From: a virus
Direction: 5' to 3' (one strand)
DNA: 21,015 nt
Virus record (IMG/VR): IMGVR_UViG_3300025759_009870
Location: 1 to 21,015 of that record
How positions within the stretch are numbered: the first letter of the stretch is position 1; each line of letters begins with the position of its first letter. Shown here piece after piece: positions 14,493 through 20,974 of this stretch. Made by a program: the position numbers and the translations under genes. The notes under the pieces were generated by a model. It searched no databases and was not told where the DNA came from. It worked only from the letters and a program-made list of their open reading frames with translations.

Positions 14493-15514
14493 AGAAAGAC
14501 TCAAATATCAGTGATGATATAGAGATAGATATGTCAGAAGAAATTATAGAACAAGAACTAGATTTATCACTGTCACAACTAAAAGGTGTTGGACCAAAAA
14601 CTGTAGAAAAACTAAACAACTTTGGTGTTACATCTTTGTTTGACTTGTGTGTTCGTGGTGCCAAAGAGATATCAGAGATTACAAGTGTTGCAAAAGACAC
14701 AGCACGTAGTTGGATATTCATGGCACATAAAATCTTAGAGGATAATGGCTTAATCAGAAAGTCCGATATGCCAACAAAAGAATTACTTACATACCAATTA
14801 AATCATAGAAGATTAAAGTGTGGAGCCAAGGAAGTAGATGAGTTATGTGGAGGTGGTCTTATACCAGAAGCAGTATACGAAGTCTACGGAGAATTTGGTA
14901 GTGGTAAGACACAATTCTGTATGTCAACAACAGCAGAGACAATCGCTAATGGTGGTAGAGTTATCTGGATAGATTGCGAAGATACTTTCAGACCATCTAG
15001 ACTTGTAGAGATTCTTAAAGCAAGAGAACACGCAGTAGATGATGAGTCAGCAATAGACAGTCTTGATAACGTACTATATTTTCACACGCCAACAACTGAA
15101 CAACTCTCTGGAACCGTAGATAGTTTATCAAAACTAATGTTAGAGAAGAAAACAGAACTACTTATAATTGACGGTTCCATCGGACAGTTCAGAGAAGAGT
15201 ATCTAGGTAGAGGAACACTAGCAGAGAGACAGAATGAGATAGCAAGATTGATGACACACATCAAAAACATCTCATACTACTTTAGATGCACAGTAATCTT
15301 TACCAATCAAGTACAGAGTGACCCTGCTATTATGTTTGGAGATCCAATCAAACCTATTGGTGGTAACATTGTAGCACATGCATCAACATACAGAATCTAT
15401 TTTAAGAAGTCAGGAAAAAACAGAATTGCAAGAATGGTTGACAGTCCTGAACACAAACAAATGGATGCTTCATTCATTCTAAATGAAAGAGGTATCGCAG
15501 ATGCAGAAGACTAA
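14477..15514 (+). CDS. radA: RadA/Rad51-family recombinase
   Basis: Forms filaments on single-stranded DNA and catalyses strand exchange. An acidic N-terminal extension (1-30) precedes a helix-hairpin-helix domain 'LKGVGPKTVEKLNNFG' (35-50). The RecA core has Walker A 'GEFGSGKT' (138-145), Walker B 'LLIIDGSI', and the L2/C-terminal 'GGNIVAHAST' region with 'RIARMVDSPEHK'. At 345 aa it is the normal archaeal RadA size. The segment where RadA proteins carry the Phe-x-x-Ala polymerisation motif reads 'DMPTKE' (97-102), so the motif is altered. The start overlaps MCM by 16 bases and is preceded by TAGGAGA, a good ribosome site. Confidence 0.94.
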   Translation: MEKDIEKDSNISDDIEIDMSEEIIEQELDLSLSQLKGVGPKTVEKLNNFGVTSLFDLCVRGAKEISEITSVAKDTARSWIFMAHKILEDNGLIRKSDMPTKELLTYQLNHRRLKCGAKEVDELCGGGLIPEAVYEVYGEFGSGKTQFCMSTTAETIANGGRVIWIDCEDTFRPSRLVEILKAREHAVDDESAIDSLDNVLYFHTPTTEQLSGTVDSLSKLMLEKKTELLIIDGSIGQFREEYLGRGTLAERQNEIARLMTHIKNISYYFRCTVIFTNQVQSDPAIMFGDPIKPIGGNIVAHASTYRIYFKKSGKNRIARMVDSPEHKQMDASFILNERGIADAED

Positions 15515-15602
15515 GTGTTTACACTGTAATAAAATAACAGAGGGTGTTTTTTGTTCAATCAACTGTTACAATCTTTTCTTTTTAAATACGACACCCGCAT
15601 AA
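15501..15602 (+). CDS. FCS-type zinc-finger mini-protein (33 aa)
   Basis: Short frame overlapping the RadA end by 14 bases. It has 'KCLHCNK' (C6, C9) and 'VFCSINC' (C18, C22), the same CxxC...FCSxxC layout as the mini-protein at 7314, followed by a hydrophobic end (YNLFFLNTTPA). The four cysteines at family spacing make chance unlikely despite the small size. It would be the last gene of the MCM-RadA transcript. Function unknown. Confidence 0.6.
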   Translation: MQKTKCLHCNKITEGVFCSINCYNLFFLNTTPA

Positions 15603-15614
15603 CATTTATATAAC
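15603..15614 (+). promoter_or_regulatory. TATA box for the putative structured RNA
   Basis: CATTTATATAAC, centred about 26 bases before position 15635. The first bases of the predicted RNA stem begin at 15634-15636, exactly where transcription should start. No reading frame begins there: the ATG at 15634 hits a stop after three codons. Confidence 0.6.
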
Positions 15615-15635
15615 GTAACGACTTATTACTATCAT

Positions 15636-15716
15636 GTGGGCTAGATGTTGGTTATAAGTTCCATCTTTAGAACGAAAGCCAACCAGAGGTTCCCGATTCC
15701 TCGCATTGATGCCCAC
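15636..15716 (+). ncRNA. Putative structured small RNA (81 nt), tRNA-sized but not tRNA
   Basis: Non-coding segment with its own TATA box and about 48% G+C by hand count, against roughly 35% around it. The ends pair: GTGGGC (15636-15641) with GCCCAC (15711-15716), extendable outwards by T-G and A-T. Within lie an arm GTTGGTT (15647-15653) with AGCCAAC (15677-15683; one G-T pair), topped by the hairpin GTTC/GAAC (15658-15661 with 15670-15673), and a second arm GAGG/CCTC (15686-15689 with 15699-15702). A further short pairing GATG/CATT is possible at the junction. It is not a tRNA: the T-arm is not adjacent to the acceptor strand and the T-loop and anticodon loop are not standard. Role unknown: regulatory RNA, RNA primer or origin element. 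Confidence 0.5.
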
Positions 15717-15730
15717 GTTTATTAATTACC

Positions 15731-15742: not shown

Positions 15743-15764
15743 CTTTGTGAATCCAAGAGAACGA

Positions 15765-16100
15765 ATGAGACAGTCTAATAGAAAGGCAGTGATGTGGTTA
15801 CTTAAGAATAGCTATGATGAGATATGGTTAAAACCTCATACACGTAGAGCAGACTTGGTATATACTAGGGGGGAATGGTATCGTGCTCTTGATCTGTGGA
15901 ATCTATTTGATGGTATATGTTTTGATGATAAAGATAATGTAGTGTTCATTCAGATTAAAACAAACGCATGGGCTCCAGAAAAACCACTAATTTCATTCGC
16001 AAATACACACAAAAGTGTAAGGGTCATGTCAATAAACGTCAAGCAAAACAAGGAGAAAAAATGGGAAGTTTTATATAGAGAATACTCCCATATCAAGTAA
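15765..16100 (+). CDS. PD-(D/E)XK nuclease-like protein (111 aa)
   Basis: Small endonuclease-like protein related in pattern to phage resolvase/VRR-type nucleases. Core: 'LFDGICFDD' with D49, then 'VVFIQIKTNAW' with Q63-x-K65, where Gln replaces the usual Glu, as in several phage and archaeal resolvase-like families. The N-terminus is basic (MRQSNRKAVMWLLKN). It could act on branched DNA with RadA. The frame can be extended to a GTG at 15747, but the TATA spacing favours this ATG. Its stop overlaps the next ATG (TAATG), pairing it with a second nuclease-like gene. Confidence 0.7.
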   Translation: MRQSNRKAVMWLLKNSYDEIWLKPHTRRADLVYTRGEWYRALDLWNLFDGICFDDKDNVVFIQIKTNAWAPEKPLISFANTHKSVRVMSINVKQNKEKKWEVLYREYSHIK

Positions 16101-19060: not shown

Positions 19061-20974
19061 CTATATACTCTTCTTCACTGTCTCTTTAAACTCTCTACGT
19101 ATAAAGTCAGACACTTTATCTATGGTGCATGTGATATAGTCATTACCGAATATCATATTGTATGTATTCAAGTGACAATGTTCGGCTCCTATTATTACAG
19201 GCTTGATAACTAGATGAGGATTGTTTGCCTTGATAGATTTGTATGTATTACCTGCTTGTTGTGCTAGTGCAAGATGGTGTGTATTCTGTGCGTTCTGTGG
19301 CATACCATCTGTAAGATAGATGAGGAGTTTCTTTTTACCTTTCATCTTATTCAATGCTTCTGCACAATACAATAGTGAATGAGTTGTTGGTGTCAGTACA
19401 TGATTGCTATCTGTTCCGATACGACTACATTCATATTCATTGTTAATATCACATACACCTGTCTTATCGTATGTTGTACTTGCACCACCATAACAAACAG
19501 CTTTCATAGTTATGTTTGGTATGTTGTTAACTGCCTTGAACATGGTTGCACATATGTTTCGACATATCACTAATCTATTTTCTTGTTTCATAGAACCTGA
19601 ACAATCTACTGCAATAATAATAGAAGTTCCTTCAACTTTATTATTGTCTATGTAGAATTCGTTGCTACCTTTCTTAACTGCTTCGAGCATAGTCTCTATG
19701 TCAATGTCATCTCCCTCATCTGATACCTGTAGTTTGACTTTCTGTTTGAGAGTATTGAATATCTTACGTATATCTGATACTGCGTCATTGTATATGGTAG
19801 GTGCACCCATAGGATACATATTGAGTGGTTCAACTTGTTTTGCTATAGTAGGTGCAGGTTCTTTTTCTGCTTTACTTAATGCTTTCTCTGCTTCTATCTC
19901 TTTACGTTTAATTGATTTCTCTTTACCACTATCTGTAGTAGACATTCTTTTTTCCATAGCTTCTATTTGTTTATCAGTAGGTTGAAATTTTTCATTTTGA
20001 TTCTTGGTTATTTCTAATCCTGAACCTTGTTCTGCCATACCTGAATTAGCCTTTCGAGTTCTAAATCTCCGATTTGAAATCATATCGTCTTGTGATCTCC
20101 CAAGTGAATCTTCTGCTTCCTGTCTTTCTTTTTTAATCCTATTATATTCGTCTGCTTCTTCGTCTGTCATATCTTCTATGCTAACTTTATCTCGCATATC
20201 ATTTAACATATTCCTTAGGTTGCTTAGGTTATCCCTTTTCTCATTTATATCTGCGTTTTCCTTTTCTTCTTGTTCTCTATTTTCTTCAGCAGTTTCTTTT
20301 AGTTGTTTCTTTATGTATTCGCCTAGACTACCATTCAACCATGTATGGAATATCTTATGTATGCCTCTCACTGTTGTTTCTTTACTTGCTTGATAGATAT
20401 GATTGACTTCTGCTTTATGTTCATCAGGTATTAGATCATCTCTAAAGAATCTCTTTGCCAATACATATCCATGTATAGCATCAGGTTTGAAGCATGTTTC
20501 ATTCCATTCAATACCTGCACCTTTACACATAGAATCGTATGCAATCTTTCTTCCCATGTATACTGCACCATCATTGGATTCAATACGTATGTCCTCAATG
20601 ATATTCATAGCCTCATGACATATCGTATTGAATTGTTGTTTGGTATTGTTAGTTTTATTCTCATAAGGAATGTTATTTGTATACCAATGTTCTGTCATAG
20701 TTTTGTATGGTTTCCAGAATGTAGATTCTAAACTACCCTCTTTGATATGAGATAGTTCGTGGTCGATACCAGCTCTGATAGGTATGCTTCCATTCAATAG
20801 TATTTTATATGAATTGTTACTCATTTTCATAGCACAGTTATTCTCATGGTACCTATCATAATCCACTTTGATTTCCTTACCTACCTTATCTTCTACGACC
20901 TTTATCTTCTTGTCATTGTATTGTTTCTCCTCGTCAACTTCTTTTGTGAAGCCAACGAATGATCTGGTAGACAT
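19061..20974 (-). CDS. CobT-like VWA protein with HExxH motif (637 aa)
   Basis: Three parts. Residues 1-150: a metallopeptidase-like region with 'HELSH' (72-76) and 'NIIEDIRIE' (124-132), a pairing seen in CobT-type VWA proteins. Residues about 220-430: charged, partly coiled-coil linker. Residues about 448-637: VWA domain with MIDAS 'DCSGS' (457-461), a Thr in 'LTPTTHS' and D556 in 'YLTDGMP'. Such proteins normally pair with a MoxR/CobS AAA+ ATPase that remodels a target, and phages often carry the pair. The partner is not in this window; the upstream side (right edge) is where it would be expected. It is the first complete gene of the - strand operon. No signal peptide. Target unknown. Confidence 0.88.
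   Translation of the reverse strand: MSTRSFVGFTKEVDEEKQYNDKKIKVVEDKVGKEIKVDYDRYHENNCAMKMSNNSYKILLNGSIPIRAGIDHELSHIKEGSLESTFWKPYKTMTEHWYTNNIPYENKTNNTKQQFNTICHEAMNIIEDIRIESNDGAVYMGRKIAYDSMCKGAGIEWNETCFKPDAIHGYVLAKRFFRDDLIPDEHKAEVNHIYQASKETTVRGIHKIFHTWLNGSLGEYIKKQLKETAEENREQEEKENADINEKRDNLSNLRNMLNDMRDKVSIEDMTDEEADEYNRIKKERQEAEDSLGRSQDDMISNRRFRTRKANSGMAEQGSGLEITKNQNEKFQPTDKQIEAMEKRMSTTDSGKEKSIKRKEIEAEKALSKAEKEPAPTIAKQVEPLNMYPMGAPTIYNDAVSDIRKIFNTLKQKVKLQVSDEGDDIDIETMLEAVKKGSNEFYIDNNKVEGTSIIIAVDCSGSMKQENRLVICRNICATMFKAVNNIPNITMKAVCYGGASTTYDKTGVCDINNEYECSRIGTDSNHVLTPTTHSLLYCAEALNKMKGKKKLLIYLTDGMPQNAQNTHHLALAQQAGNTYKSIKANNPHLVIKPVIIGAEHCHLNTYNMIFGNDYITCTIDKVSDFIRREFKETVKKSI

Follow-up and report, generated by a model that had tools for sequence, protein, structure and literature searches.

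Viruses are known to carry copies of host noncoding RNAs, phage tRNAs for example. Ammonia-oxidising archaea rank with the most abundant microbes of ocean and soil, and to our knowledge almost no noncoding RNAs have been described in them past the universal ones. Among RNAs already described, the haloviruses HF1 and HF2 have a hammerhead variant, named HHphage, 13 nt before an early helicase gene (PMC3088659), and marine group II Euryarchaeota possess Tan1, an abundant noncoding RNA of 229 nt (PMC5069720). Here we describe a small structured RNA encoded between RadA and a candidate nuclease gene in a 21,015-nucleotide stretch of viral DNA (IMG/VR record IMGVR_UViG_3300025759_009870; the window), together with its relatives in other viruses and in archaeal chromosomes.

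A noncoding RNA gene with a three-way-junction fold

The RNA occupies positions 15635-15717 of the plus strand (about 83 nt), within a covariance model match spanning 15631-15722 whose score of 72.7 bits is that of a training member of the model. The segment folds at -26.6 kcal/mol as compared to -16.9 +/- 2.9 kcal/mol for shuffled sequences (z = -3.4), and the opposite strand folds less well (z = -1.9). A first-pass annotation of the window had proposed here a structured viral RNA that is noncoding, has its own promoter and belongs to no known family, and this proposal is borne out by covariation, by the spacing of the TATA box and by the absence of any Rfam match; P1, P2, the P3 cap, P4 and the TATA-like letters all lie where that annotation had placed them.

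Reading from the 5' end on the plus strand, P1 pairs GTGGGC (15636-15641) with GCCCAC (15711-15716), with changes on both sides in 6 of its 8 model pairs and an inner end, GGC/GCC, that is almost unchanging across the alignment of viral and host members. The first junction strand, J1 (UAGA, 15642-15645), is nearly invariant in the first alignment (A1) as well as in alignment A3. P2 joins GTTGG (15647-15651) to CCAAC (15679-15683), all five pairs covarying and 94% of cells being paired; above it lies an internal loop of AUAA (15654-15657) and GAAAG (15674-15678), conserved in A1 and A3, and above this in turn an optional cap, the P3 hairpin (15658-15673; GTTC at 15658-15661, GAAC at 15670-15673), which shows double changes in the RNAalifold consensus and is missing from some members in A3. 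J2 (CA, 15684-15685) is kept in most members, and all three model pairs of P4 (15686-15702; GAGG at 15686-15689, CCTC at 15699-15702, around a UU-rich loop) covary. The most conserved single-stranded stretch is J3, GCAUUGAU (15703-15710), which contains invariant columns of A1. Across the family the layout is P1, UAGA, a P2 of about 5 bp carrying a loop in which AUAA faces GAA(A/U), with P3 optionally on top, C(A), P4, CAUUGAU and P1; in the junction UAGA, C(A) and CAUUGAU hardly vary, nor do the AUAA/GAA loop and the GCC of P1 that follows J3.

Homologues of RadA and of the nuclease led to 120 IMG/VR loci, and in many of these the stretch between the two genes holds an obvious relative of the element. 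Seventeen relatives entered A1, on which RNAalifold found double changes at 12 of 15 pairs. A covariance model (R1), together with DNA patterns for the junction letters, extended the set to 38 distinct viral members, which contain 160 double-change cells as compared to 48 in shuffled alignments, standard pairs in 87.5% of cells as compared to 63%, and a covariation score of 0.632 as compared to 0.175 when shuffled and 0.05-0.17 when the structure was slid along the alignment. With host members added, 95.0% of cells are paired and the score reaches 0.797 (0.187 shuffled). Because this combined alignment holds 48 G-U pairs and only 7 A-C mispairs, the plus strand is read as the functional RNA. 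The three stems of the first-pass annotation were therefore right, since relatives carry compensating changes in them; of its long arm, drawn as GTTGGTT/AGCCAAC, the GTTGG/CCAAC helix stands, whereas the outermost TT/AG forms in relatives part of the conserved AUAA/GAAAG internal loop. Covariation and fold show that the segment encodes a structured RNA with a three-way-junction fold, and it is probably a noncoding RNA gene standing on its own.

Chance matches provide a useful background for these scores: a pattern scan of the genome collection returned 111 matches, approximately the chance expectation, of which those sampled reach at most 30 bits with the extended model, and chance pattern matches in viral contigs likewise fall below 30 bits. 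A rumen phage locus absent from the training of R1 (L335) scores 39 bits with that model.

The promoter is similarly regular. The window carries a TATA box, TTTATATAA, at 15605-15613 on the plus strand, at the distance that the first-pass annotation had expected, and this spacing is general: a TATA-like motif lies at -30 to -25 of the first model position in 24 of the 38 viral members, with at most 3 of the 38 having one in any other 5-nt bin, and A+T content is near 100% at -27 to -24 in 19 host members. Relatives whose RNA directly follows the RadA stop codon have a weaker TATA-like string within the end of RadA. These data strongly indicate a transcription start at the foot of P1, driven by the RNA's own TATA box. 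A T-rich stretch 3' of the RNA is found in just 11 of 26 members (background 15%).

We compared the RNA with a number of known classes. Firstly, ARAGORN finds no tRNA in the window or its relatives, and neither the order of the arms nor the J3 of 8 nt that links the last arm to P1 fits one, which speaks against the tRNA mimic considered by the first-pass annotation. Secondly, neither the window nor its viral or host relatives match any Rfam 15 family at gathering score, and the window has no match even at lax thresholds. Thirdly, the hammerhead core (CUGANGA, GAA(A), UH) is absent, its place being taken by CAUUGAU, UAGA and C(A) in a comparison made by hand on A3. Inspection of A3 and A4 by eye revealed neither a constant ACA after P1, as box H/ACA guide RNAs would have (e.g., L006 and L325), nor a pair of C (RUGAUGA) and D (CUGA) boxes; the archaeal RNase P and SRP RNAs (RF00373 and RF01857) lie at other loci in 10 of 10 and 9 of 10 genomes. 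As to coding, some viruses have a short frame beginning with an ATG in P1, but lengths spread across all three remainders modulo 3, and each reading frame is open in at most 10 of 26 members. Stems mutating without compensation, a conserved peptide and a tRNA or Rfam match, which had been named at the outset as counting against a structured RNA, were thus all looked for and none occurred. Nor did we find a description of this RNA in the open-access PMC literature. We call the family new in this sense, as being without an Rfam 15, tRNA or open-access PMC description; its function could be of a known kind.

A homologue in Nitrososphaeria chromosomes

Model R2, built from viral members only, matched 25 of 400 Nitrososphaeria genomes at E <= 0.001, and with strict prefilters model R3, built from viral and host members, matched 90 of 300 at E <= 0.01, in a class that includes lineages not oxidising ammonia. 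The E-values of these purpose-built models are rough, and R2 and R3 include some of the members that they score. At E <= 0.001, R3 matched none of 151 Bathyarchaeia and none of 116 genomes of another archaeal phylum.

The host copies are mostly single, 95-123 nt long and preceded by a TATA-like A+T run, and none matches Rfam. Their surroundings are cellular, one (L401) adjoining a proteasome subunit gene, and differ between lineages; in many Nitrosopumilus-like genomes the RNA lies 40-45 nt before a gene for an 86-amino-acid, zinc-ribbon-like protein. Some host genomes have two copies, and a conserved inserted or longer P4 hairpin (GACUAGAGCAGUGAAGCUCGUCAUUCAGGUCUG) is found in L434-L436 and L403. 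Closest to the viral RNA are the Nitrososphaerales-like copies L400-L402, which score 56, 40 and 40 bits with R2. Judged from sequence and predicted structure, the viral RNA is homologous to an unannotated chromosomal RNA of Nitrososphaeria, the class of the ammonia-oxidising archaea. A viral copy of a host noncoding RNA should have such a homologue, the assignment of the host itself being indirect.

This assignment comes from the terminase. Nitrososphaeria genomes encode relatives of the window's TerL protein, the best with 51% identity across nearly the whole protein, and for this reason ammonia-oxidising archaea or their close kin are the likely virus hosts; the window is likely to derive from a tailed virus of these organisms. 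Elsewhere in the window, a 637-amino-acid protein (19061-20974, minus strand) has no Pfam or PHROG match, and by eye ends in a VWA-like domain (DCSGSMKQ) as in CobT-like proteins.

Viral settings and candidate roles

In the window and its near relatives the element lies beside the genes for RadA, MCM and the nuclease. Other settings are varied: a portal-like gene follows the RNA in six loci (L314, L319, L325, L334, L354 and L303), tail-type genes flank it in L342 and L320, and it stands alone in L292, L293, L296, L304, L305 and L359. The tie to an MCM-RadA operon that the first-pass annotation had entertained is, given these relatives, unlikely. In the rumen phages L335 and L352 the RNA follows a winged-helix gene in the company of lysozyme, Erf-like and lipoprotein genes, and these bacterial-phage members place the motif outside archaea and their viruses too. 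One virus carries two copies (L065 and L161/L296). Many RadA-bearing virus records have no copy detected by our models, so that either the RNA is not essential to this group or it has diverged beyond the models' reach. An INPHARED search returned near relatives of neither RadA nor the nuclease, and a FastTree of so short an RNA is too weak to tell how many times the RNA gene moved or which way.

The downstream gene (15747-16100, plus strand) encodes a small nuclease candidate of PD-(D/E)XK-like type, with an invariant D55 and Q69-I-K71 (a QxK variant). Its AlphaFold model (pLDDT 85) has weak PDB matches to PD-(D/E)XK-type nucleases (best E 0.011), the weak structural matches being a chain of the SPARDA complex, Cas4-like proteins and tRNA splicing endonucleases. 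In the window, one promoter may serve both the RNA and this gene. Upstream, a 33-amino-acid CxxC...CxxxC microprotein (MQKTKCLHCNKITEGVFCSINCYNLFFLNTTPA; 15501-15602, plus strand) overlaps the end of RadA, and similar short zinc-ribbon-like frames occupy this place in L001, L003, L011 and L053. At about 5170-5330 of L051, upstream of the element, a second TATA box precedes a possibly structured noncoding stretch (GGGACTACACTCTAAGGACTGTTTAGACAGTTCG...), in which ARAGORN finds no tRNA.

We think it probable that the window RNA is the viral form of a host noncoding RNA not yet described, and that it acts in trans as the stand-in or competitor of that RNA. Once expressed by the virus, this form would occupy the protein partner or partners of the host RNA; the host complex would thereby be topped up during infection, or the host RNA displaced from it. 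We infer action in trans because the contexts are mobile and sometimes oppositely oriented. The downstream nuclease gene is then probably a neighbour of the RNA and not its target. The RNA may be a decoy or a regulator, as the first-pass annotation had suggested, the homologous host RNA now being a concrete target. More speculatively, and with less confidence than we place in the viral copy itself, ammonia-oxidising archaea could have a machine, a ribonucleoprotein or catalytic RNA so far undescribed, that has this three-way-junction RNA as its basis, and tailed viruses, some of them infecting bacteria, would repeatedly carry the RNA in order to take that machine over or replace it.

The main rivals are a cis-acting leader and a new self-cleaving ribozyme. 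That the RNA is the 5' leader of the next gene, here the small nuclease, exerting riboswitch-like or protein-binding control, is suggested by position: a gap of 6-45 nt separates the end of the RNA from a same-strand start codon in the portal-like group and in most RadA-nuclease viruses, many Nitrosopumilus-like loci have a similarly short gap, and the promoter ahead of the RNA would drive the gene too. We nonetheless regard a leader as unlikely. Riboswitches and other cis leaders would be expected to precede related genes on the same strand, and the genes that follow this RNA are unrelated (nuclease, portal-like, tail-type and zinc-ribbon protein) or, in at least eight loci, reversed, including the viral L002, L359, L335 and L292 and the host L401, L403, L404 and L411. 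In L304 and L296 the downstream gene is 325-465 nt away, and L002 keeps the RNA where the nuclease is gone. A role as leader only does not fit the loci in which the next gene is reversed or this distant.

Still less probable, in our estimation, is a new class of self-cleaving ribozyme that processes viral transcripts, although the small compact junction, its invariant single-stranded letters and its varied intergenic viral sites would suit one, and the hammerhead variant of HF1/HF2 provides a precedent (PMC3088659). Compared by hand, the equivalents of hammerhead G8/A9 and G12 are absent, and the one possible G8 is a P1 base that undergoes compensated change in L053 and L400-L402; there is no Rfam ribozyme match, and it would be unusual for a small ribozyme to be encoded in host chromosomes by a gene that is mostly single-copy and has its own promoter.

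It is very doubtful that the likeness of viral and host RNAs is mere convergence upon a simple three-way junction. In its favour, the RNA is short, the host P4 is longer, and host J3 reads GCUGGAU or GCUGAU as compared to the viral GCAUUGAU. Against this, viral and host RNAs agree in UAGA, in the loop AUA(A)...GAA, in the C within J2, in the GAU that closes J3, in the inner GGC/GCC of P1 and in the position of the promoter; the viral-only model picks out host copies in one class, and the extended model gives no match in either of two other archaeal groups; and L400 lies near the viral consensus. A DNA-level element (an origin, as the first-pass annotation had considered, or a packaging or recombination site, extruding as a single-strand structure), for which the neighbouring RadA, MCM and nuclease genes speak, is hardly credible given a seven-fold retention of G-U over A-C that a DNA structure would not favour, a TATA box at fixed spacing, and copies that move between unrelated viral loci and host chromosomes.

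Comparison with described RNAs

We thereby gain a conserved RNA family whose core is clear, whose viral and host forms can be compared and for which there is a detecting model, and it can now be asked what task of an RNA matters so much to a virus that it brings a copy along.

The archaeal RNase P and SRP RNAs are likewise chromosomal noncoding RNAs of ribonucleoproteins, differing in being far longer and in lying at other loci of the same genomes. Tan1 is also a lineage-restricted orphan noncoding RNA of abundant marine archaea, but it belongs to another host phylum and has another length, a distinction drawn from its published description; R3 matched none of 116 genomes from the phylum of a marine Euryarchaeota MAG. 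HHphage differs from the window RNA in its core letters and catalytic positions, and the window RNA has a host-chromosome homologue and a sequence that does not indicate cleavage; both are small three-way-junction RNAs that have an invariant core and, in an archaeal tailed virus, closely precede an early gene. Phage tRNAs have counterparts of known family, whereas here the host RNA is itself undescribed and matches neither tRNA nor any other known family; what the two have in common is a structured host RNA carried in a virus under its own promoter.
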